A DNA stretch of 64,000 nucleotides from Amniculibacterium aquaticum (lineage in GTDB: Bacteria > Bacteroidota > Bacteroidia > Flavobacteriales > Weeksellaceae), in NCBI RefSeq assembly GCF_003852705.1, contig NZ_REFA01000001.1, forward strand, positions 1-64,000. The letters run 5' to 3'. Below the pieces are notes generated by a model. It did no database searches. It saw only the letters and a list, made by a program, of their open reading frames with translations, and had not been told where the DNA came from. How positions within the stretch are numbered: position 1 is the first letter of the stretch; every line of letters begins with the position of its first letter. The position numbers and the translations under genes were made by a program. Below, piece by piece: positions 3,019 through 52,754 of the stretch.

Positions 3019-5073
3019 ATGCAAGCACCTAAGGTTAAGAAAATAGAGAAAATTTTAGAAATTCATAACGACCAAAGAATCGACAATTATTTTTGGCTGA
3101 ACGAAAGAGAAAATCCTGAAGTTTTAGAATATCTGAATAAAGAAAACGACTATTGTGATTTCATGATGAAAGACACCGAAGACTTGCAAAACGATTTGTA
3201 CGAGGAAATGAAAGCCCGATACAAAAAGGACGACGAGTCTTTACCTTACTTTTTCAATGCTTATTGGTATATTGTACGATACGAAGCCGGAAAAGAATAT
3301 CCAATTTTTACCAGGAAATTTCAAAATTTAGAAAACACGGAAGAAATCATCATCAATGCCAATGAATTGGCTGAAGGTAAAGATTTCTATGACCTTGGCA
3401 GTATTGCTGTGAGTCCGAACAATAAAATAGCAGCCTTTTCCGAAGATGTTTTGGGAAGAAGAATTTATACCATTCGTTTCAAAAACTTAGAAACCGGCGA
3501 GTTTTTAACAGATGAAATAAACAATTGTACGGGTAAAGCCGTTTGGACAGCCGACAACCGGTATGTTTTTTACATCGTAAAGGACAAGAGTTTGAGAGCG
3601 TATAAAGTTTTCAGGCATCAATTGGGAACTTCGACCAAAGACGATGTTCTTATCTTTCATGAAAAAGACGATGCCTTTGATGTTAATGTGTACAAAACCA
3701 AGAGTTTAGACTATGTTTTCATCGCAAGTTCCAGCTCTATTTCGGATGAGCATCGTTTTATTTCTGCAGATACACCTTTGGCAGATTTTACCATCATTCA
3801 GTCTCGTGAAGACGATTTAGAATACGCTGTAGAACATTATCAGGACGAGTTTTACATCATCACCAATGCCGATGAAGCCACCAACTTCAAGTTGGTAAAA
3901 ACCAAAGTGGATGCCTGTGGTAAAGAAAATTGGCAAGAAGTTATCCCGCATCGCAAAGAAGTATTGTTGGAAGGATTTGAAATTTTCAAAAACTACTTGG
4001 TTTTGGAAGAGCGAGAGCAAGGTTTGTTGCAAATAAAAATTATAGATTTTGCAAGTGACAATTCCTATTATTTGCCTTTTTCAGATCCAACTTATACCGC
4101 ATACATCGCTTCCAATTTGGAGTTTGATACGGATAAACTTCGTTACGGATACACTTCCATGACCCAGCCTCATGCTACTTTGGAGTACGATATGAAGGTG
4201 AAAACCACAGAGGTATTGAAACAACATGAAGTGTTGGGAGGCAAATTTTTAAAAGAAAATTACATTTCCGAAAGGATTTGGGCGCCGTCCAGAGATGGGA
4301 AAACCAAAGTTCCGATTTCCATAGTTTATCATAAAAACACCACAAAATCTGCTGATACACCACTGTTAATTTACGGATACGGCAGTTACGGACATACGGT
4401 GGACGCAGGTTTTTCCAATGTTAGGTTGTCCTTATTGGATCGAGGTTTTATCTATGCCATTGCGCATATTCGAGGAGGCGAATACTTAGGAAGAGATTGG
4501 TACGAAGACGGAAAAATGCTCAACAAAAAAAATACATTCTACGATTTTATCGATGCCGCAAAATATTTGGTCGGTCAACAGTACACTTCGCCTGGACACC
4601 TCTATGCCATGGGCGGTTCTGCCGGTGGTCTTTTGGTAGGTGCTGTGATGAATATGGAACCCGAACTGTTCAACGGAATTATCGCTCAAGTTCCGTTTGT
4701 GGATGTGGTAACGACCATGTTGGACGAAGAAATCCCGCTTACGACAGGTGAATTTGACGAATGGGGAAATCCCAAAAAGAAAAAATACTACGAGTATATG
4801 AAATCCTATTCGCCGTACGATAATGTGGAAGCGAAAGATTATCCCAATGTATTGATTACGACGGGTTTTCATGATAGTCAGGTGCAGTATTGGGAGCCGG
4901 CAAAATGGACCGCCAAACTGAGAGAGCTAAAAACCGATGATCATTTGTTGATATTTAAAACCGACCTCAGTTCCGGACACGGTGGTGCAAGTGGCCGATT
5001 CGAAAGCCTGAAAGAAGACGCTTTGGAATACGCTTTCTTGTTGAAATTGGAGCAATTAGCCACGAAGTGCTAA
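3019..5073 (+). CDS. ptrB: Oligopeptidase B (S9 family serine peptidase)
   Basis: A 684-residue S9A peptidase, the usual size for oligopeptidase B, which cuts short peptides after Arg or Lys. The N-terminal two thirds form the beta-propeller gate and the C-terminal part an alpha/beta hydrolase. The catalytic triad is visible: Ser534 in GGSAGGLL, Asp619 in GFHDSQVQYWEP and His654 in SGHGGASGR. The start has the typical hallmark DNYFWLNERENPEVLEYLN. No signal peptide is seen, so it is probably cytoplasmic or periplasmic by another route. It begins 17 bases after a good -7 element and is followed 83 bases later by an unrelated unknown gene. Confidence 0.93.
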   Translation: MQAPKVKKIEKILEIHNDQRIDNYFWLNERENPEVLEYLNKENDYCDFMMKDTEDLQNDLYEEMKARYKKDDESLPYFFNAYWYIVRYEAGKEYPIFTRKFQNLENTEEIIINANELAEGKDFYDLGSIAVSPNNKIAAFSEDVLGRRIYTIRFKNLETGEFLTDEINNCTGKAVWTADNRYVFYIVKDKSLRAYKVFRHQLGTSTKDDVLIFHEKDDAFDVNVYKTKSLDYVFIASSSSISDEHRFISADTPLADFTIIQSREDDLEYAVEHYQDEFYIITNADEATNFKLVKTKVDACGKENWQEVIPHRKEVLLEGFEIFKNYLVLEEREQGLLQIKIIDFASDNSYYLPFSDPTYTAYIASNLEFDTDKLRYGYTSMTQPHATLEYDMKVKTTEVLKQHEVLGGKFLKENYISERIWAPSRDGKTKVPISIVYHKNTTKSADTPLLIYGYGSYGHTVDAGFSNVRLSLLDRGFIYAIAHIRGGEYLGRDWYEDGKMLNKKNTFYDFIDAAKYLVGQQYTSPGHLYAMGGSAGGLLVGAVMNMEPELFNGIIAQVPFVDVVTTMLDEEIPLTTGEFDEWGNPKKKKYYEYMKSYSPYDNVEAKDYPNVLITTGFHDSQVQYWEPAKWTAKLRELKTDDHLLIFKTDLSSGHGGASGRFESLKEDALEYAFLLKLEQLATKC

Positions 5074-43168: not shown

Positions 43169-43308
43169 CGAAAAAAAGTTTCACAAAATTAAAGATTTAT
43201 ACAGTCAGCTTCCAACGATTATGATAGAATTTTACAATGATATAATTTATGAACATAGAATAAACGATTTTCAAGGAAAAGATTTAAATTTGATTGGTCG
43301 TTATTCCC

Positions 43309-43426
43309 CCTGCTTGCACGAGCATCTTGCTCGTGTCCAACAAAACACAGTGGTAAAGCTAATAAAATAAGCTCCATCTTTTTCTTTGAATTTATACTTT
43401 CTATTTATTTCTTATTGTTTATGGGT
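43309..43426 (+). repeat. Dispersed repeat copy 1, left boundary of the RiPP locus
   Basis: 118 bases that align without gaps to 52614-52731, differing at about 10 positions by eye. It begins with the hairpin CACGAGCA-TCT-TGCTCGTG (43317-43335). Unlike copy 2 it lacks the right terminal inverted repeat, so it looks truncated or decayed. It is the main content of the 341-base gap 43169-43509; the remaining bases (43427-43509) show no other feature. Confidence 0.8.
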
Positions 43427-43509
43427 GAAATTAAATGCAACAAAACATTAAGCTTTTAAAAATAAGATGATTACATCATTGGGTAAAATATTCCTTAAAA
43501 GAACATAAG

Positions 43510-44844
43510 TTAATTCATGGTTTTGAAATAGACTAGATAATTTAAAATGAAACGACCAAAAATTAAATTATATTTGGATTGTGCCAAGTTTCCTTCAATA
43601 GACATCAGATTATTTTTCGCAGTGTTGAGTTCATAAATGTTGATTTTTCCTGCCAAAAAACTTTTCTCGGCGTAAGAAAACGACAATTGTGTAGCTTCCA
43701 TCGAAGCTAAAATTGCCTTATGATTTTTCAGTTTAGACTCGTAATCCAAATAGCTTTTTTGTACATTCGACCGAAGTTGTTGTTTGGTAATTTCCAAATT
43801 ATTTTCTGCAATTTTTTGATTGATGTATCCTTGTTGTTGCTGTAATTTTGCATTTCCTTTGTTGAAAACAGGTACGCTTACAGAAACCCCAATTTGCTGA
43901 CCAAAATTATTGTTGTACTGTTGCCAAAAAGGTACAGAACTATTGAAATCTTTATTGAAATATTGAAAGAAAAAAGAACCGACACCCGAGGTAAGTGTTA
44001 CGGAAGGAAGATAGTTGGTTTTGCTAATTTCTGTTTGTTGCTTTGCGGATTGTATTTTTTGCTTTGCAGCTTGTACACTTGGATTGTTACGATAGGCTTC
44101 TGCAATAAGTTTTTCTATATCAGTATTTTGCATTGTGTAATCAGATGATTCTAGTAAATCCGAAACATCAAAATCCTGATAATTTTCTAATTGCAACAGT
44201 GAGGTTAGTTGCAACTTAGCTTTGTCTATTTCATTAATAGCGTTTTCCAACAATTGGTTTTTTCGTATCATTTCGGCGTAAGATTCTTGCTCTATAGCTT
44301 TTGAAGTAATACCAGCTTCGGTTGTAAGCCTTGTTTTTTCGTACATTTTTTGAGCGTAGTTTTTGGCTTCCAAATTTATTTTGTAAATCTCTTTTTGTAA
44401 AAGTATTTGTAGAAAATTTTGTATGAGCTGCAAATTTATTTCGTACTTCGTGTTTTCGAAATCGTATTGGGCAACGGAATAATCGGACTTGTTTTTAGCT
44501 ATTGTTTTAGAAATTCTCCCACCGTTGTATAAGTTTATACTTGCATTGGCAGAAAGGTTGTGCGAAAAATTATCGTTTCTCTGTAAAGTTCCCAATAGCA
44601 CATTTTGCCCAAAATTCATGCTACCGTTAGCGGAAATACCGACAGTTGGGAGATAATCTTTTTGCGAAATTTTGAGTATATTTTCTTGTGCTTCTATATT
44701 TATTTTGGATTGCTTTATTCTCAAATTATTGTTTTCCGCATAGCTGATGCAATCCTCAAGCGTCCACAATTTTTGCGATGATATTCGTTTGGAAATCATT
44801 AAAAAAAATAGGATAATACATAATTTTAAATTCATTTTAAACAT
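43510..44844 (-). CDS. TolC-family outer-membrane efflux protein
   Basis: A 444-residue TolC-like protein with an N-terminal hydrophobic signal (LCIILFFLMISKRISSQ). Two OEP domains of long helices run through the sequence (about 25-210 and 220-440), with the repeated form SYAENNNLRIKQSKINIEAQENI and ANLEITKQQLRSNVQKSYLDYESKL. It should supply the outer-membrane channel for the ABC/HlyD exporter. The ATG overlaps the HlyD stop as TGATG, so translation is coupled. It is the last gene of the RiPP operon. Confidence 0.9.
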   Translation of the reverse strand: MFKMNLKLCIILFFLMISKRISSQKLWTLEDCISYAENNNLRIKQSKINIEAQENILKISQKDYLPTVGISANGSMNFGQNVLLGTLQRNDNFSHNLSANASINLYNGGRISKTIAKNKSDYSVAQYDFENTKYEINLQLIQNFLQILLQKEIYKINLEAKNYAQKMYEKTRLTTEAGITSKAIEQESYAEMIRKNQLLENAINEIDKAKLQLTSLLQLENYQDFDVSDLLESSDYTMQNTDIEKLIAEAYRNNPSVQAAKQKIQSAKQQTEISKTNYLPSVTLTSGVGSFFFQYFNKDFNSSVPFWQQYNNNFGQQIGVSVSVPVFNKGNAKLQQQQGYINQKIAENNLEITKQQLRSNVQKSYLDYESKLKNHKAILASMEATQLSFSYAEKSFLAGKINIYELNTAKNNLMSIEGNLAQSKYNLIFGRFILNYLVYFKTMN

Positions 44845-46148
44845 CAAGCTTGGTATCCTAATAATTTTCTGAATTGATAAAAAAGTCTTTGTAATAATCG
44901 CAAATCTTGGGTTACAATTTCGGCATTTCCACTTAGTTCTTTGTCGAAAGTAAGCGTTTTATTATAAGAAGTATGCAAACCTTTGGGCAGGATAACCTCC
45001 ACAAAATAATTTCCTTTTTCGTCCGGAGACAATGCCATATTTTGTACCGTGCCTTGGACAATACCGTATTCTTGGTATCGGAAATTATTTAGTTTTATCA
45101 GTACCTTTTCTCCGTTTACAATTTTTCCGGCATTGGTTGCCGGGACAAACATTCTGCCTACCAATCTTTGGTTTTCACTAGGCAAAATGGTAAATATAGC
45201 ATCTCCGGATTTTACCATTTGGTTTTCGCCCCACATTTGTTGGTAACTAACCTTACCTTTGGTAGATGAGGTGATGAGATAGTTGAGTTCCCATTGTTTC
45301 AAAGATTTCCTAAGTTGCTCCAACGATTGTGTACTTTGTAATTGGTAGTTCAGTACATCTTTTTGTAAAGTATTATGGGTATTGCTTTTGTTTTTATACA
45401 GATTGCTAATGGTTTCCTGTGTTTGTGATACCGACAGTTGTAGGTTTCTAACATTTTGTTCTTCTTGTAGAATTTTTATTTTTTCGTTTTCCATTTCTAG
45501 TGCAGATAGTACACCTTGCTCGAAAAGATGTTGGCTACGGTCATAATTTTTTTTGGACAATTGAAATTTTGTTTGTTCCAACCCCAATTGTTGTTGTAGT
45601 GTTGCCATCCTAGTTTTGGTTTCCGCTTCGTTTTGGGAAATTGCAAGTTGTTCGGGAGAGTAGGGTTGTAGTTTTTGAAAAGATTTTTCTTCTTGCAAGG
45701 CTTTAGCAAAAACATTGTAGTCCATTTGCAATTCTCCTAGTTTTAGGTGCGAGGTTTTGTTCAGAGGAAAATTGGCTACATTGCCAGTTTGCATATCGTC
45801 TAAAATATTTTTCAGCAGGAGTACATCTTGGTAATTAGCCGAAGATTGCAGCACCATCATTATTTGGTTTTTGTCCACCATTTGTTGGTTAGCAATGTAT
45901 ATTTTTTCTATTTTGGCTGTGGTTTTGGCAAGTAGTTTTTCCGGTGCATTTTCGGTGGTGATGATGATGGGTGCAGGTACAAATTCCGGATATTTTATGA
46001 ACCAACTCATCATGATAACCATAACAAGTATTGCTAGAAGTATGGTGTTTCCCCAACGGATAAGCCAATGAGGTGGTTGCGAAAGAATGTCTTGTACTTC
46101 TTCCGAACGAAGTTGGATATTGTCTAGTATATCTCGGTTAGTTTCCAA
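44844..46148 (-). CDS. HlyD-family membrane-fusion (adaptor) protein
   Basis: A 434-residue protein with one membrane helix at about residues 33-50 (ILLAILVMVIMMSWF), a biotinyl-lipoyl-like part (EKLLAKTTAKIEKIYIANQQMVDKNQ) and a long coiled-coil hairpin (about 150-285, Gln/Glu/Lys-rich), then a beta-barrel region with GRMFVPATNAGKIVNGEKVLIKLNNF. It bridges the C39 ABC exporter and the TolC channel. It overlaps the ABC gene by 11 bases and the tolC-like gene by 1 base. Confidence 0.9.
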   Translation of the reverse strand: METNRDILDNIQLRSEEVQDILSQPPHWLIRWGNTILLAILVMVIMMSWFIKYPEFVPAPIIITTENAPEKLLAKTTAKIEKIYIANQQMVDKNQIMMVLQSSANYQDVLLLKNILDDMQTGNVANFPLNKTSHLKLGELQMDYNVFAKALQEEKSFQKLQPYSPEQLAISQNEAETKTRMATLQQQLGLEQTKFQLSKKNYDRSQHLFEQGVLSALEMENEKIKILQEEQNVRNLQLSVSQTQETISNLYKNKSNTHNTLQKDVLNYQLQSTQSLEQLRKSLKQWELNYLITSSTKGKVSYQQMWGENQMVKSGDAIFTILPSENQRLVGRMFVPATNAGKIVNGEKVLIKLNNFRYQEYGIVQGTVQNMALSPDEKGNYFVEVILPKGLHTSYNKTLTFDKELSGNAEIVTQDLRLLQRLFYQFRKLLGYQA

Positions 46149-48408
46149 GTTCTAATTGGTTTTTTATTAATCTATAATATTCGCCTTTTTGTGCGACAAG
46201 TTCTCTGTGGTTACCTTGTTCTACCACTTTTCCTTTGTCCAGCACAATTATATTGTCGGCATTTTTCACGGTTGAAAGTCTATGGGCGATAACAACAGCA
46301 GTTTTGCCAAGAAAAAATTGTTCTAGATTTTGCATAATTACTTTTTCGTTATTGGCATCGAGAGAACTGGTTGCTTCATCAAAGAAAATATTTTCCGGTG
46401 ATTTGTACACTGCTCTTGCAATAAAAAGTCGTTGTTTTTGTCCACCACTTATCCCAATCCCTTCATTTCCAATTTTGGTATTGTAACTTAGCGGGAGTTC
46501 TTCTATAAAATCTTTTATGTTGGCAATTTCTACGGCTTTTTTCAGTTTGTTTTTATCGATATTATCTTCGCCAATGGCTATGTTTTGGGCAATGGTATCA
46601 TTAAAAACATATCCCTCTTGCATTACCACACCACAATGATCTCGCCAAGCTCTGGGAGAAATGTTTTTCAGTTGGGTATTACCTAATTTTATTTCGCCTT
46701 GGTTGGGTTGGTAAAATTTCATTAGAAGTTTTAGCAAGGTAGTTTTTCCGCTACCACTAGCACCAACTATGGCGGTGGTTTTTTGGTAAGGTATAACAAG
46801 GTTTAGGTTTTCGAAAACAAATTGGTCGGCTCCTGTGTATCGAAAAGCGAGATTGGAGATTACAATATCTTTTTTCGGTATTTCGGATAGGTATTGTTCT
46901 TCTGCATTTTCTTCATCGGTTTTATCGTGTATTTCTTTTAGCCTTTCTAGGGATATTTTGGCATCTTGAGTTTGGCGTACAAAATCCACCAATTGCAATA
47001 GAGGACTGTTGAGTTGCCCGATAATGTACTGTACCGAGAGCATCATACCTAGGGTAAGATTACCACTGAGCACCAATTTTGCCGAGAGAAAACTTACCAA
47101 AATATCTTTTATTTGGTTAATAAAATTACCTCCCACCGATTGCCATTGCTCCAAAGAAAGGGATTTTATCCTTAATTTGAAAAGTCGTATTTGCAGAAAC
47201 TCCCAACTCCATCTTTTTTGTTTTTCGGCGTTGTGCATTTTTATTTCCTGCATTCCGTTTATCAGTTCTATTACCTTGCTTTGTTCTTGCGAAACCTGCG
47301 AAAACCGCTTGTAGTCCAACTCTTTTCTTTTACCTAGGAAAAACAAAATCCAAATGGTATAAAGTGTAGCACCTGCAATATAGACCAAAAACAACAAGTA
47401 ATTGTAAAACAACAATATAACGGAATAAATTAACAAATTAACCAAAGAAAACAAAGTATTGAGGGAAGAGCTGGTTAGCAATTGCTCTATCCTGTGGTGG
47501 TCGTTAATCCTTTGCATAATATCGCCAGTCATACGAGTATCGAAAAAGCTGATAGGCAGACGCATGAGTTTGATAAAAAAATCCGAGAGTATGGAAATAT
47601 TAATACGGGTAGATAGATGCAGGAAAATCCAACCACGGATAACTTCCAGACCTGTCCTACCTACAAAAAGCATGAGCTGTGCCAACAATACCAGGTAGAT
47701 AAAATTGAGGTCTTGGTTTTGTATGCCCACATCTACAATACTCTGGGTAAGAAATGGTACGATGAGCGATAGCAAACTCCCTGCCAATAAGCCAATTGCC
47801 AATTGCGACAACAACGATTTGTAACGAAACAAATACCGAAACAGGAAAGAAAAACTAGCTTTGTCCTCAGTATTGTCCAACTCGTTTTTGGAGAAAGCAG
47901 GGGTGGTTTCTAGTAGCAAGGCGATACCTTCTTCGGTATTTTCGTTGGCGTTTTCGCCTATCCATCGTTTCAGAAATTCTTGTTGGGTGTAGGTAATAAG
48001 ACCGTAACTGGGATCGGAAATTTTTATTGTACAATCGGTCGTGTCATATAAATTACCACGCTGTTGTTCTCTTTTTACCTTGTCTTTTTTACTTTTTACT
48101 TTATACTTTTTACTTTGTACAACATCATACACCACTACAAAATGTTGCTTGTCCCAATGTACAATACAAGGCAGGGGTACTTCTTCTACCAAAGTTTTGA
48201 AATCTATCTGCACTCCCAAACTCCTGAAACCCATTTTCTCGGCAGCTTCGCTTAGCCCTAACAAAGAGCTTCCCTCACGAGTAGTTTCTGAAAGATTACG
48301 AATTTCTTGTAAAGGCATGGTTTTGCCGTAATACTTGGCAATAATCCGTAAACAAGTAGGTCCGCAGTCTTTGGTGTCGGGTTGAAGGTAGTTGGGAAAG
48401 GGTTTCAT
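46138..48408 (-). CDS. C39-peptidase-containing ABC exporter
   Basis: A 756-residue exporter. The N-terminal C39 peptidase (1-150) has catalytic Cys15 in DTKDCGPTC, His89 in KQHFVVVYD and Asp132 in IKISDPSYG; it cuts leader peptides after a double Gly. Six membrane helices follow (about 200-480), then the ABC domain with Walker A GASGSGKTT, signature ISGGQKQR, Walker B NIFFDEATSSLD and the His switch IAHRLST. Residues about 98-127 are a Lys-rich insert not expected in the domain (see findings). It overlaps the GwsS stop as TAATG. The start at MKPFPNYLQ is chosen because upstream codons are inside the preceding gene. Confidence 0.93.
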   Translation of the reverse strand: MKPFPNYLQPDTKDCGPTCLRIIAKYYGKTMPLQEIRNLSETTREGSSLLGLSEAAEKMGFRSLGVQIDFKTLVEEVPLPCIVHWDKQHFVVVYDVVQSKKYKVKSKKDKVKREQQRGNLYDTTDCTIKISDPSYGLITYTQQEFLKRWIGENANENTEEGIALLLETTPAFSKNELDNTEDKASFSFLFRYLFRYKSLLSQLAIGLLAGSLLSLIVPFLTQSIVDVGIQNQDLNFIYLVLLAQLMLFVGRTGLEVIRGWIFLHLSTRINISILSDFFIKLMRLPISFFDTRMTGDIMQRINDHHRIEQLLTSSSLNTLFSLVNLLIYSVILLFYNYLLFLVYIAGATLYTIWILFFLGKRKELDYKRFSQVSQEQSKVIELINGMQEIKMHNAEKQKRWSWEFLQIRLFKLRIKSLSLEQWQSVGGNFINQIKDILVSFLSAKLVLSGNLTLGMMLSVQYIIGQLNSPLLQLVDFVRQTQDAKISLERLKEIHDKTDEENAEEQYLSEIPKKDIVISNLAFRYTGADQFVFENLNLVIPYQKTTAIVGASGSGKTTLLKLLMKFYQPNQGEIKLGNTQLKNISPRAWRDHCGVVMQEGYVFNDTIAQNIAIGEDNIDKNKLKKAVEIANIKDFIEELPLSYNTKIGNEGIGISGGQKQRLFIARAVYKSPENIFFDEATSSLDANNEKVIMQNLEQFFLGKTAVVIAHRLSTVKNADNIIVLDKGKVVEQGNHRELVAQKGEYYRLIKNQLELGN

Positions 48409-49499
48409 TATTTTTTTACCAAATCTTGCATACCGTAATATTGTATGGCTTTTTGTTTTAGAGGATTTGTACTCCATTCTTCCCATTCTCCTGTATATGG
48501 ATTGTAACCGCATTTCAATGGTTTAGATGTATCCAAACCATCTTTGTCTGTATGGGTTCTTTCTGTGTAAGCTCTGCAATCTGTACAGATGTAGCGAAAC
48601 TCACAATCTTTACAGACTTCTATTCTATCTTTGGTAAGGTTCCAATATTTTTTGAAATCTTTATGATTAAGTGCTTCTTCTAGTGTAGTATCTTTTATAT
48701 TGCCAAAGCTTTGTGGCATACTTGGACAATTGCGAATATTACCCTCTGCATCTATAGAAATTTTTTTGTGAAGGCAGGAGTTTTTACACATTGATTCAAG
48801 TGAGAATGTACGGTTTAAATTAAAATTTTTGGGTAAGACACTTCCGCAACTTTCTGGAATAAAAATAATATTTTCAATAATATTTATTCTTATACTTGAA
48901 AACTCCTTATGATATTTTTCACTTCCTGAATGAAAGACAATATCCAATAATTTACTTGTGATAATTCCTTTATTTTCTGTGAAGTATCGAAATAATTCGT
49001 CACTATATTTCAAAATGATTGAAATTTCATTAACACAAGAATCGTTCAGAAGTTTTAAATTTTCTAATATTTCACTAATTTCAGTATAGTTTAATTGATT
49101 TGAAAATCTTAGTTGTATATATTTTATTTTCGAAAATATTATTTCGTTTATAAGACTTTTGTTGAAAAAATCACTATTTTTAAAATCAATAATAAAATAT
49201 TCAATATTACTAGGACTCTCAACAAAATACGGCTTGTATACAAATTTATTAAGTTCTTCTTCTGATTCAACAAAAAATCCCAAATTGTTATCGGTTATGA
49301 AATTAATGTATTCTTCAATTATAATGTAATCTTCATCATTTATTTTTTCTTTAAGAACAGAATAATTAGTTTTTTGATTTAATATGATATTTAACATAGT
49401 ATTTGGTATAAATTGCAAAAAACCATTATCAGTATCATATATAAGCGATTTTTTAACGCCTTTTGTAATGTTTACAGAGTCGTGTATTTTCAAAAACAT
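48408..49499 (-). CDS. gwsS: GwsS: SPASM-domain peptide maturase of a grasp-with-spasm system
   Basis: A 363-residue protein. The C-terminal SPASM domain is clear: Cys238/Cys242, Cys258, then C296-x2-C299-x5-C305-x2-C308 and Cys330 with GYNP, residues that bind auxiliary Fe-S clusters in radical SAM maturases. The N-terminal 230 residues have a TIM-barrel-like alternation, but the first Cys is at 155 and no CxxxCxxC motif exists, so no canonical radical SAM cluster. This matches the family called grasp-with-spasm SPASM protein, recognised from memory. It lies next to the ATP-grasp gene and the exporter. Its codon composition is distinctly AT-rich. Confidence 0.88.
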   Translation of the reverse strand: MFLKIHDSVNITKGVKKSLIYDTDNGFLQFIPNTMLNIILNQKTNYSVLKEKINDEDYIIIEEYINFITDNNLGFFVESEEELNKFVYKPYFVESPSNIEYFIIDFKNSDFFNKSLINEIIFSKIKYIQLRFSNQLNYTEISEILENLKLLNDSCVNEISIILKYSDELFRYFTENKGIITSKLLDIVFHSGSEKYHKEFSSIRINIIENIIFIPESCGSVLPKNFNLNRTFSLESMCKNSCLHKKISIDAEGNIRNCPSMPQSFGNIKDTTLEEALNHKDFKKYWNLTKDRIEVCKDCEFRYICTDCRAYTERTHTDKDGLDTSKPLKCGYNPYTGEWEEWSTNPLKQKAIQYYGMQDLVKK

Positions 49500-49502
49500 A
49501 GA

Positions 49503-49664
49503 TTAATATATTAGAGAGTAATATTTGTTTGAACGGAATATTTTAGTATTATTACTCTTAATTACCGTATTTTTAGTATATTTAACTGTGTTAATATTAC
49601 CACAAAGCTTCCATTCTTGTAATGTAAATGAAATTCCTTTAATATCAATATTGTTTTTTTTCAT
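49503..49664 (-). CDS. Possible 53-aa basic small protein between gwsG and gwsS
   Basis: An ATG frame of 53 residues starting MKKNNIDIKGISF and ending YYSLIY; the stop is 3 bases from the gwsS ATG. It is very basic with many Asn, Lys and Thr and only one Glu, one Asp and one Cys. It has no double-Gly leader site and no signal peptide. It may be a leader-like or regulatory small protein, a second modified peptide, a decayed precursor, or chance. A TTG start at 49694 would add 10 residues. The gap between gwsG and gwsS (240 bases) is otherwise unexplained. Confidence 0.35.
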   Translation of the reverse strand: MKKNNIDIKGISFTLQEWKLCGNINTVKYTKNTVIKSNNTKIFRSNKYYSLIY

Positions 49665-49739
49665 AGAAGATACTTTTTTTAAATCTTTGAACAAATCAAA
49701 AATAAATACAAATTTTAGTGTTGCTGTATCGTTTAAGAC

Positions 49740-50702
49740 TTATAACAAATCAGCAATATATTTTTCAATTTGGAAATTTCCAAGAATACTAATGTTGTGA
49801 AATTGACCTAATGGGTTTATTTCTAAAAAATAATATTTATCTTTTGATTTTATAAAGTCCAAAGTACCACACATCAAACCTAATGAATTAGAAAGTTTAT
49901 AAATGTTGTTTTTTATACTTTGAGGTAATTCATAGATAGAATATTTTTTTGTGATTTCTTTCCCTTTTCTATTATCAATTTCTTCGGTAGAATCAAAACA
50001 AGCAACAGACCATATTTTTTTTTGAAAAAAGAAAACTCTAATCTCATATTCTCTATTTATTTTCTCTTGTAAAAGTGTAGGAATTAAGTTTTGATTTTTC
50101 CCTTCTAAATCGCTTAAATACACTTCTTTAGTATAATTAAGATACATGCCAGTTTCGACAAACACTGGTTGTACTTCAGAAATCGATTTAGTTATAATTG
50201 ATTTTTTAGAATTTACGATATTTTCAACTATTGTTAACTCGGTTGTAATAATACTTTCTGGTGTAATAAAGCCTAATTGTTTTGCTTTGTGAAGCACTTC
50301 AAGTTTATTAACTTTTTTTTGGGATAAATTTCCATAAATTTTTACACCTAATTGGGATAAATAATAAAAAATAAAATGTATCGTTTCCTTAATTTCAGAA
50401 TTATAAAACTTTGCTAAATTCAAATCTATGTCTTGATCTATTTTTTTATATGATACCACGCCATTCCTATAATAGACAGATGTTACTTCATTCAGATTTA
50501 GTATTTCATCATCAATTGAAACTAGATAATTATCTTTTTGAAAATCAAAATATAAAGAGTTGATAAGCATGTTTTCACTAAACCTTAAAAACTGCTTATT
50601 TTGATACGATAACCATCTACATATCTCATCTGTAATAGTATCGTTATCTACTGAAATTACTAGTATTATTCTATTTTTATCAGGTATAGTCTTTTCTTCC
50701 AT
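49740..50702 (-). CDS. gwsG: GwsG: ATP-grasp peptide maturase
   Basis: A 320-residue ATP-grasp ligase of the MvdD/MicB-like class. The N-terminal pre-grasp domain has VISVDNDTITDEI, the central part EKINREYEIRVFFF and KSIITKSI (ATP-site Lys), and the C-terminus GTLDFIKSKDKYYFLEINPLGQ with metal-binding Glu294 and Asn296. Relatives make ester or amide crosslinks between Asp/Glu and Ser/Thr/Lys in graspetides (microviridin family). Its coupling here with a SPASM protein is the hallmark of grasp-with-spasm systems. The ATG overlaps the end of the preceding gene by 37 bases. It is AT-rich. Confidence 0.88.
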   Translation of the reverse strand: MEEKTIPDKNRIILVISVDNDTITDEICRWLSYQNKQFLRFSENMLINSLYFDFQKDNYLVSIDDEILNLNEVTSVYYRNGVVSYKKIDQDIDLNLAKFYNSEIKETIHFIFYYLSQLGVKIYGNLSQKKVNKLEVLHKAKQLGFITPESIITTELTIVENIVNSKKSIITKSISEVQPVFVETGMYLNYTKEVYLSDLEGKNQNLIPTLLQEKINREYEIRVFFFQKKIWSVACFDSTEEIDNRKGKEITKKYSIYELPQSIKNNIYKLSNSLGLMCGTLDFIKSKDKYYFLEINPLGQFHNISILGNFQIEKYIADLL

Positions 50703-51742
50703 TCATCTACATCTTCATTTGTTGAAACTGCATGTATTATTGTTTTTTGTGTTGGAAAAATAAAATCATTATTTTTTAATAAAAAAAGGCTTTTTTTACT
50801 TTCAGACATTATATTATTTAGACCAATTTTTTTTCTAGATATATTAGTATGTTCAATTTTTTCATCAATACTTTGGTTTCTATTTTCGGGAAAGTAGTAT
50901 TTTGTAATATAGCAACATTCATCGGTATTTCCTGCTTTTATCATTGTGACAGCATGTGTAACATCACCTATAACAAAACCATGAGGAGCAAAAGCTTCAG
51001 TATGAAAATTATTAGTCCCATCGTTTAAATCTATTAAAAAACCTGCAATATATGGTGTTATTTTTCCATTATTAAGAGCCTTTTCTATTTCTTTTGAAAA
51101 ATTGACTTGCTGTGGGCTATATTTATTTTTTTGTGCTTGATGCCAAATAATATAATAAAACTGGTGGATTAATGGATTATTTTTAAAAGAATTTACTCCA
51201 ATATCATATTCATTTGGGAAACCATTTTTTTGTATAAGTTTCAATAATTTTGTAGCAGCAATACTGTCACTAGTCGTTATTTCTTTTTTATATTTTGTGT
51301 AGTCTCCAATGGATAAATTTCTATAATGCTGGTCGATTACAAATAAAGAATCAAATGACTTTTTCAAAGAAAAATTTATTTTGATTTTACAATCATCTTT
51401 TTTTATTTTTTGTAAATCTTCATTTTGTGCTAAAAATTCATCATCAAAACTATACCCCATACATTTTAGTAATTGGTATTTTTCTTCTACCCATTTATTA
51501 TCTTTTGTTTTTATAGCAACTTTCAGACTGTTGTAAATATCCACCGCATGTGGATTTTTGAAAATACTGAAAGCACTTTTGTAATTTACAAGTGCAGAAT
51601 CTAATTTGTTTTCCAATATAAATTCTTCTGCACTATTAATTTTTTCATAATATTGAAGCAAAATCGGATTTTTTAACTCATAATTTTGTGAGTAAAAGCA
51701 GGAAAAAGAAAAAAAAGTAAATAGTAATATTATTTTTCTCAT
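50666..51742 (-). CDS. Exported DUF6624-like protein in the RiPP operon
   Basis: A 358-residue protein starting MRKIILLFTFFSFSCFYSQN, with a signal peptide ending in SQ. Residues about 28-110 look TPR-like (AEEFILENKLDSALVNYKSA). The middle has a pattern I associate with DUF6624: D-Q-x2-R (VIDQHYRNL), DSIAATKLLKLIQKNGFPNEYDIGV and LIHQFYYIIWHQ. The match is tentative. The C-terminal third (HGFVIGDVTHAVTMIKAGNTDECCY) is unplaced. It may act in the periplasm on the exported peptide, in immunity, or in sensing. It lies between the precursor and gwsG, separated from the precursor by a hairpin. Confidence 0.75.
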   Translation of the reverse strand: MRKIILLFTFFSFSCFYSQNYELKNPILLQYYEKINSAEEFILENKLDSALVNYKSAFSIFKNPHAVDIYNSLKVAIKTKDNKWVEEKYQLLKCMGYSFDDEFLAQNEDLQKIKKDDCKIKINFSLKKSFDSLFVIDQHYRNLSIGDYTKYKKEITTSDSIAATKLLKLIQKNGFPNEYDIGVNSFKNNPLIHQFYYIIWHQAQKNKYSPQQVNFSKEIEKALNNGKITPYIAGFLIDLNDGTNNFHTEAFAPHGFVIGDVTHAVTMIKAGNTDECCYITKYYFPENRNQSIDEKIEHTNISRKKIGLNNIMSESKKSLFLLKNNDFIFPTQKTIIHAVSTNEDVDEWKKRLYLIKIE

Positions 51743-51758
51743 TTTTAAATAAATAAAA

Positions 51759-51778
51759 GAGAGGCATTTCTGCCTCTC
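51759..51778 (-). terminator. Intercistronic hairpin after the precursor gene (attenuator)
   Basis: On the minus strand GAGAGGCA-GAAA-TGCCTCTC, an 8-bp perfect stem with a 4-base loop, followed by a T-rich run. It lies between the precursor stop (51783) and the next start (51742). Such partial terminators are commonly seen after RiPP precursors, where they raise the ratio of precursor mRNA over enzyme mRNA. Confidence 0.7.
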
Positions 51779-51782
51779 ATAA

Positions 51783-52025
51783 TTAATTACAAGGGGTATT
51801 CGTGATTTTATCATTGATGTACACTACATGTCCCTCACTTACTACATCTCCGGTGTATGTATATGTATAGCAATTACCAAAAAAATCCGCATCACATCTT
51901 TCACCTCCACTTGTATAGGTCGGAGCAGCAATAAAGGACGGGGCAGGACCTCCCTCACCACCGATTACACCATTTAGCTTTTCGCTTTGTAGTTTATAGT
52001 TCTCCAACTTTTCTAACTTTTTCAT
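51783..52025 (-). CDS. RiPP precursor peptide with a double-glycine leader
   Basis: An 80-residue peptide. The leader (1-23) is MKKLEKLENYKLQSEKLN plus VIGG, with the hydrophobic LN-x2-I-Gly-Gly pattern cut by C39 peptidases. The core (24-80) begins EGGPAPS and contains Cys44, Cys52 and Cys79, a Thr/Tyr cluster (NCYTYTYTGD) and acidic residues (ERCDADFFGN, VVSEGHVVYINDKI) that could be crosslink partners for the ATP-grasp ligase. It is the first gene of an operon with the maturases and exporter. I do not recognise a named subfamily for the core. Confidence 0.85.
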   Translation of the reverse strand: MKKLEKLENYKLQSEKLNGVIGGEGGPAPSFIAAPTYTSGGERCDADFFGNCYTYTYTGDVVSEGHVVYINDKITNTPCN

Positions 52026-52065
52026 AATAAAAATATTTTGTGTTATTTTGTCATTATTGACAAGA

Positions 52066-52099
52066 CAAATATAAATTGTGAAATAAAATAAAACGACAA
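52066..52099 (-). promoter_or_regulatory. Promoter of the RiPP operon
   Basis: On the minus strand TTG (52099-52097), 23 bases, TATATTTG (52073-52066), ending 40 bases before the precursor ATG. Spacing is at the long end of the accepted range. The -33 box touches operator box 1. Confidence 0.45.
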
Positions 52100-52135
52100 C
52101 TAAAGTTTATTTTTGGGACACTAAAGTTTATTTTT
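52099..52135. promoter_or_regulatory. Two identical 16-base operator boxes
   Basis: ACTAAAGTTTATTTTT occurs at 52099-52114 and again at 52120-52135, exactly 21 bases apart (two DNA turns), in the gap between the divergent XRE and precursor genes. The boxes overlap the -33 region of the XRE promoter and adjoin that of the RiPP promoter. A dimer or tetramer of the XRE protein is the likely ligand (inference). Confidence 0.6.
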
Positions 52136-52144
52136 TTACATTTG
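52112..52144 (+). promoter_or_regulatory. Promoter of the XRE regulator
   Basis: TTTG (52112-52115), 21 bases, TACATTTG (52137-52144), with the ATG at 52158: a full Bacteroidota promoter with a very short leader. Both operator boxes overlap it, suggesting autoregulation. Confidence 0.6.
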
Positions 52145-52157
52145 CTAAAAAAATAAG

Positions 52158-52538
52158 ATGGCACTAGGTAAAAAACTTCATAATCTTCGTATTGCAAAAA
52201 ATCTCACCAAAGAAGGCGTTGCATTGGAATTAGGCGTGTCGAAAACTGCGTATGGTAAATGGGAAAACGATATTGCAAAACCCAATTTCCAAAACATTTC
52301 TACCATTTGCAATTTTTACAACATTAGTAAAGATGAACTCATGGAAGAAGAAAAAAATATCAACCAAAACAACAATACCTTTAACAATAGTCCAAATGTA
52401 ATAAATTCACCAAATCCAACTTTCAATTATACCATCTCGGACGAAATTATACAAAAAATTACGGATAACCAAAACAATATATCAGAATTAGTCCAAAATC
52501 AAAATATCTTATTACAAAAAATACTCCAACAGAAGTAA
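52158..52538 (+). CDS. XRE-family helix-turn-helix regulator
   Basis: A 126-residue protein. The N-terminal HTH (about 5-62) reads KLHNLRIAKNLTKEGVALEL then SKTAYGKWENDIAKPN, with YGKWE a typical XRE recognition end. An Asn-rich linker (about 68-92) leads to a C-terminal helix of coiled-coil character (DEIIQKITDNQNNISELVQNQ) suited to dimerisation. It is divergent from the RiPP operon and faces two repeated boxes, so it probably controls both genes. There is no ligand domain, which suggests control by concentration or by another protein. Confidence 0.9.
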   Translation: MALGKKLHNLRIAKNLTKEGVALELGVSKTAYGKWENDIAKPNFQNISTICNFYNISKDELMEEEKNINQNNNTFNNSPNVINSPNPTFNYTISDEIIQKITDNQNNISELVQNQNILLQKILQQK

Positions 52539-52613
52539 AGTAAAATTTAGCACAATATTCTTTCTCAAGCTCATAGGCTTCATTCTTCACATCCATAAAA
52601 TTCAGGGTATCCT

Positions 52614-52754
52614 CCTGCTGGCGCGAGTATCTTGCTCGTGTCCAACAAAACACAGTGGCAAAGCTAATAAAATAAGCTTCTTCTTTTTCTTTGAATATAT
52701 ACTTTCTACTCATTTCTTATTGTTTATAGGTACGAGTGGGACACTCGCACCAGC
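52614..52754. mobile_element. Short non-autonomous element (MITE/REP-like) with dispersed repeat copy 2
   Basis: 52614-52731 matches copy 1 at 43309-43426. Here the element extends to 52754: GCTGGCGCGAG (52617-52627) and CTCGCACCAGC (52744-52754) are inverted repeats matching at 10 of 11 positions. The left hairpin is kept through G-U pairs (CGCGAGTA-TCT-TGCTCGTG) and a second hairpin CGAGTG-GGA-CACTCG lies near the right end. No transposase is encoded. It lies in the 332-base gap 52539-52870, which otherwise holds only the hemerythrin promoter. Confidence 0.7.

Follow-up and report, generated by a model that had tools for sequence, protein, structure and literature searches.

A grasp-with-spasm graspetide cluster in Amniculibacterium aquaticum with a SPASM protein devoid of the radical SAM motif

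Grasp-with-spasm loci, in which an ATP-grasp enzyme of the TIGR04192 type is paired with a SPASM protein of the TIGR04193 type (branch 5; PMC8939145), are the described counterparts of a gene cluster found in a 64,000-nucleotide stretch of the Amniculibacterium aquaticum genome (contig NZ_REFA01000001.1, positions 1 to 64,000; hereafter the window). The cluster of the window is similar to these loci in gene content, gene order, a double-Gly precursor, a small protein encoded before the SPASM protein, a C39 exporter and an exported protein, but differs from them in that its ligase scores under the curated cut-off, its small protein is without the LPL motif, a TolC gene is linked and the precursor has a core of its own. 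The group 14 graspetides (PMC13097080) are also a candidate among the closest known systems. The SPASM component of the family has been called a radical S-adenosylmethionine (SAM) enzyme, for which the formation of thioether bonds was proposed (PMC8939145). In the rosaritide system MirA/MirB/MirC, the synthetase MirB needs MirC and copurifies with it, and the N-terminal domain of MirC is weakly RRE-like (PMC13097080). This arrangement of a ligase and a partner with an RRE-like N-terminal domain is like that proposed here for the window, although the C-terminal domain of MirC is SurA-like instead of SPASM, the rosaritide system is actinobacterial and the two are, as far as tested, not homologous. 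The radical SAM-SPASM maturases PqqE, CteB, SuiB and TigE share with the SPASM protein of the window a predicted fold that consists of an RRE (of the CteB, SuiB and TigE type), a barrel and a SPASM domain; unlike them, the protein of the window is without CX3CX2C and its barrel is shortened, so that no radical SAM chemistry is expected of it. The microviridin and chryseoviridin synthetases (MdnB/MdnC and CdnC) are homologous to the ATP-grasp ligase of the window, with identical catalytic positions, but have no SPASM partner; in these systems the ligase itself binds the leader.

Gene content and identity of the locus

A run of eight intact genes extends on the minus strand from 52025 to 43510 and encodes, in this order, a precursor, an exported protein, an ATP-grasp ligase, a small protein, a SPASM protein, a C39 exporter, an HlyD protein and a TolC protein, with a divergent gene for an XRE regulator at 52158-52538. 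All the genes named in the initial annotation of this stretch are present and uninterrupted, in the order described and on the minus strand, and their profile matches are far beyond chance; a ninth gene, of 53 amino acids at 49503-49664, had been overlooked. The tight overlaps that the initial annotation reported are real for the TAATG that joins the SPASM and C39 genes, the 11 nt shared by the C39 and HlyD genes, the TGATG at the junction of the HlyD and TolC genes and the 37 nt shared by the exported-protein and ATP-grasp genes, whereas at the end of the precursor gene a hairpin is found instead of an overlap.

The precursor gene (51783-52025, minus strand) encodes a peptide of 80 amino acids with the double-Gly leader MKKLEKLENYKLQSEKLNGVIGG and a 57-residue core. 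Its match to TIGR04139 is weak (21.9 bits; cut-off 40), as is that to Bacteroid_pep, which is also below cut-off. Among 13 precursors of the same subtype, Thr or Ser at positions 38 and 58 and Asp at position 60 are invariant, which provides the conserved donor and acceptor residues of a graspetide, while position 42 is Glu in 10 and Gln or Ser in the other 3. The most economical side-chain link would be T38-D60, and E42-T58 may form an inner ring. In agreement with two published accounts (PMC8939145; PMC13097080), the statement of the initial annotation that the structure of the product is not established for this group stands. The core contains three Cys. Their positions differ from one close homologue to the next, and the related array L024 encodes, near 3457, one precursor that is free of Cys.

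Because both enzyme models match, the leader is of the double-Gly type and the precursor has conserved Thr/Ser and Asp positions, the locus is, as judged from its sequence, a graspetide cluster of the grasp-with-spasm type, with the characteristic adjacent pairing of ATP-grasp and SPASM enzymes beside a double-Gly precursor. It contains the one SPASM locus of the TIGR04193-type family in the whole genome, and a scan of species genomes gave 79 loci.

The SPASM protein and its relationship to the ligase

We propose, with a probability of about 0.62, that the SPASM protein presents the precursor to the ATP-grasp ligase and functions as a non-radical partner of this enzyme. The SPASM protein (48408-49499, minus strand; 363 amino acids) scores 274 bits against TIGR04193, over the cut-off of 175, and matches the Pfam SPASM profile with an E-value of 7.7e-7. 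CX3CX2C is absent from the N-terminal part in all of 88 aligned SPASM proteins, that of the window included, and the lone match to this pattern among the 88 falls in the SPASM part. Because the motif is absent, no radical mechanism is supported: the protein is most likely not a radical SAM enzyme, and it does not qualify as a second, radical modifying enzyme.

The predicted structure of the SPASM protein (pLDDT 87.4; pTM 0.82) consists of an RRE (residues 1-85), a shortened barrel and a SPASM domain. Residues 1-85 of the model match the RREs of 6jx3_B (Z 9.0, root-mean-square deviation (rmsd) 2.4, 76 residues aligned), 8t19_A (Z 8.7, rmsd 2.4, 76 aligned) and 5v1u_A (Z 8.3, rmsd 2.7, 75 aligned), and the N-terminus is predicted to adopt an RRE-type winged-helix fold that would bind the leader. 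The rest of the model matches TigE (8vpo; Z 10.9, rmsd 7.4, 306 aligned), PqqE (6c8v; Z 10.6, rmsd 5.9, 214 aligned) and CteB (5wgg_A; Z 10.1, rmsd 6.5, 271 aligned), and Foldseek gave E-values down to 3.8e-5. A sequence search of the PDB with the SPASM profile found nothing convincing.

The ATP-grasp graspetide synthetase (49740-50702, minus strand; 320 amino acids) scores 194.6 bits against TIGR04192 (E 2.5e-57), under the equivalog cut-off of 230 bits, yet TIGR04192 is the best family by 78 bits. The search with both enzyme models suggested in the initial annotation thus returned both, but only the SPASM model passed. Six sampled members of the ligase subfamily are also under the cut-off, with 189-222 bits, and because these and the ligase of the window score below it, the latter is, at the level of sequence, a divergent branch. 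Among four ligases tested from outside the subfamily, those of L041 and L027 are below the cut-off, while those of L085 and L008 pass. A profile built on 46 ligases retrieves the solved graspetide synthetases 5ig9, 7m4s (AMdnB) and 7mgv (CdnC); K172, E220, R222, D243, R245, D282, E294 and N296 are invariant, and the DxR motif is found in all 46. In its homology to known synthetases, its catalytic residues and its DxR motif, the protein is like a graspetide synthetase.

The eight SPASM cysteines are conserved at 94-100% in the 88 aligned proteins, as in SPASM domains. They are arranged as CX10GX4C, then CX2CX5CX2C and then C, with C218 upstream, which fits what we take to be two putative, fully ligated auxiliary clusters, as in SPASM domains of the anSME type. 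That these cysteines are kept despite the loss of the radical site, and that conservation is far higher in the SPASM part than in the remainder of the protein (about 73-84% against about 20-49% identity to the window among the closest relatives), would suit a SAM-independent chemistry of the two clusters, such as redox chemistry on the core Cys or the passing of electrons to another enzyme, besides leader binding. Such chemistry is nevertheless unlikely, as the core Cys positions are unconserved, one related precursor is without Cys and the cluster has no other redox enzyme. A distant SPASM relative in L006 (1495-2493) has lost several SPASM Cys, and the ligase next door is kept.

Co-variation was measured by pairwise distances across 72 loci. 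The distances of the RRE correlate with those of the ligase (rho 0.64) and of the small protein (0.67), and those of the ligase with those of the small protein (0.60), whereas the SPASM part correlates neither with the RRE of the same protein (0.10) nor with the ligase (0.02). When the SPASM part was controlled for, none of 500 permutations attained the observed partial correlations. Topology tests rank the trees in the same order: the N-terminal half of the SPASM gene was much better explained by the ligase tree (log-likelihood difference 289) than by the tree of its own C-terminal half (2953), although every data set rejected the other trees; the tests used 1000 resamplings, which the program warns are too few for a reliable approximately unbiased (AU) test. 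The co-variation supports, without proving it, a contact between ligase and RRE. It also bears on the proposal that the ATP-grasp enzyme alone modifies the precursor, with the SPASM and small proteins acting elsewhere in the pathway, for instance in handing the peptide to the exporter. Most characterized graspetide synthetases are indeed partner-free (PMC13097080), and the SPASM and exporter genes overlap, but both the RRE half and the small protein track the ligase and not the SPASM part, and branch 5 precursors are without the leader motif on which other synthetases rely (PMC8939145); a ligase acting by itself thus appears more doubtful still. That the SPASM protein is a radical SAM enzyme and introduces a second modification, such as a thioether from a core Cys (as in PMC8939145), is very improbable: maturases of this kind commonly have SPASM domains, the core has three Cys and the fold resembles those of CteB and SuiB, but the N-terminal parts of the 88 aligned proteins are without CX3CX2C, the barrel of the model is shortened, and the Cys positions vary among close precursors, with one L024 precursor having none.

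Several points weigh against a non-radical partner role of the SPASM protein. The ligase is below the TIGR04192 cut-off; the retention of all eight cluster-binding Cys suggests more than a passive scaffold; the structure of the SPASM protein is a prediction, whose whole-chain TM-scores to radical SAM-SPASM enzymes are low (0.3-0.4); the co-variation may come from one co-inherited cassette instead of physical contact; and our literature search found no biochemical test of any grasp-with-spasm member. By analogy, a MirC-like role would nonetheless fit the SPASM protein of the window better than a radical role.

Accessory genes, regulation and genomic island

The small protein (49503-49664, minus strand; 53 amino acids) lies in the slot of the LPL family (PMC8939145). 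Its close homologues in related loci are always encoded between the ATP-grasp and SPASM genes, and an open reading frame of 45-79 amino acids occurs in this slot in 84 of 87 loci; in L003, L028 and L055 the automated choice for the slot was a larger protein of the exported family. The position is that of the LPL family but the motif is not, as the protein of the window has FTLQEW. Many slot proteins (e.g., those of L061, L036 and L046) carry, besides the N-terminal LPL, a C-terminal motif like FYKPISKII or KPLTRLL.

The exported protein (50666-51742, minus strand; 358 amino acids) has a signal peptide, TPR-like helices and a putative DUF6624-like region. The start at 51814 in the initial annotation is not kept; ATG 51742 is most likely the start because it yields a signal peptide like that of the homologues and aligns with them. 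As this start leaves a hairpin between the two genes, the precursor and exported-protein genes do not overlap. The hairpin, GAGAGGCAGAAATGCCTCTC followed by a T-rich tail (51759-51778, minus strand), is terminator-like by pattern match and is the sole one found in the region. The exported protein has no direct match to PF20329 (DUF6624), while 1 of 49 aligned homologues matches at 2e-14, and Asp-Gln, His and Arg positions are shared. The N-terminal helices are TPR-like in a fold search, which found nothing at an E-value below 0.001 and only TPR-type structures with Z below 8. By homology, the protein likely belongs to the same family as 'cluster 23' (PMC8939145). No member of the family was found in L020 and L021, which are otherwise of the subtype of the window, and the exported protein may therefore be dispensable. 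The remaining genes of the run, all on the minus strand, encode the C39 peptidase/ABC exporter (46138-48408, start ATG 48408; Peptidase_C39 E 8e-31, with the ABC exporter confirmed by Pfam), an HlyD-family periplasmic adaptor that matches the HlyD profile (44844-46148) and a TolC-type outer-membrane channel (43510-44844; OEP/TolC E 6e-54).

The divergent gene (52158-52538, plus strand) encodes an RstR-like XRE repressor of 126 amino acids (HTH_3 E 6e-13), which scores 53 bits against NF041951 (phage_RstR), below the cut-off of 80. In many related loci, too, an XRE gene is found in divergent orientation. ACTAAAGTTTATTTTT occurs in two direct copies (52099-52114 and 52120-52135), 21 bp apart, which form a candidate repressor operator at 52099-52135, and other short repeats occupy the operator place in several related loci. 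The -7 consensus of Bacteroidota promoters is TAnnTTTG. A promoter-like sequence of this type for the XRE gene, TACATTTG (52137-52144), lies beside the candidate operator, and the putative promoter region of the precursor gene (52049-52073, minus strand) reads as promoter-like TATATTTG (52066-52073) and then the palindrome TGTCAATAATGACA (52049-52062). This palindrome, TGTCAATAnTGACA at 52049-52062 of the window, is just 3' of the promoter-like TAnnTTTG, and similar ones are found upstream of the operon in L041, L033 and L083.

In the window, the cluster lies between pyrD and a hemerythrin-like gene, which are adjacent in two sister species, with gaps of about 100 bp (G001) and about 490 bp (G002). 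The surroundings have a GC content of 0.38, the cluster one of 0.32 and its precursor-ligase part one of 0.27. Because the cluster is missing at this junction of both sisters and is lower in GC, it was likely gained as an island; loss from both sister species is the alternative explanation for the same distribution. The ends given to the cluster in the initial annotation coincide with a dispersed repeat of about 122 nt, whose copies at 43305-43426 and 52610-52731 (91% identical) flank the island and are outside the pathway. Because the genome carries this repeat six times, including four occurrences away from the island, it was rejected as a specific insertion device, and a plasmid origin was rejected as a plasmid collection has no near match.

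Proposed pathway and cassette exchange

With the SPASM protein as a non-radical partner, the pathway would start with repression of the locus by the XRE protein. Once the locus is switched on, the hairpin after the precursor gene would lead to more of the 80-residue precursor than of the enzymes. The RRE of the SPASM protein would grip the leader and pass the core to the ATP-grasp ligase, and the ligase would use ATP to join Thr/Ser to Asp/Glu side chains with the loss of one water per link. The two auxiliary Fe-S sites that the SPASM protein may keep would have a structural role or sense redox state, and the 53-residue protein may complete the complex of ligase and partner. The C39 exporter would then cleave after Gly-Gly, with the peptide leaving via HlyD and TolC, while the exported DUF6624-like protein may work outside the cytoplasm, where immunity or a late processing step are possible roles.

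Three pairs of SPASM genes from the same genome (L041/L044, one inside L024 and one inside L045) have a DNA identity of about 45% as far as roughly codon 240, beyond which most 20-codon blocks are at 0.9-1.0. In one Chryseobacterium genome, the SPASM 3' ends of L041 (10676-11037) and L044 (10691-11052) share 98.6% identity across 362 bp, as against about 47% in the front parts. L024 (2394-7732) and L045 (599-8706) are cassette arrays, whose internal units end in remnants of the C39 5' end after the SPASM gene; the repeated unit of L024 begins at the SPASM end, continues through a C39 remnant and an XRE gene and stops where the next precursor, with an unrelated core, starts. Between species, four-fold sites of the SPASM C-terminal part are near background (median identity 0.34), so that recombination was rejected as the general cause of its conservation, which in general reflects selection on the protein; recent exchange is confined to the three same-genome pairs. 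In the SPASM gene of the window no recent exchange is seen. Its C-terminal part is equally close to its own subtype and to loci whose N-terminal identity is about 20%, and its N-terminal part is lower in GC than the rest.

We tentatively suggest, at somewhat less than even odds, that the RRE-barrel half and the small protein join the ligase in an obligate recognition complex, and that new cassettes of precursor, ligase, small protein and RRE half plug by homologous recombination into a resident SPASM 3' end and exporter, with the SPASM gene serving as the exchange hinge. If this is true, a lineage can change its peptide and yet keep one export line. A hinge in the SPASM gene would give a concrete account of how unrelated peptides come to be found with similar ligases in related strains, a question left open previously (PMC8939145), and points to the place at which cassettes are joined in nature. 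In the literature the SPASM component figures as a radical SAM enzyme; should the family as a whole have lost the radical site, experiments would shift from thioether chemistry to leader recognition and to the complex of the ligase with its partner.

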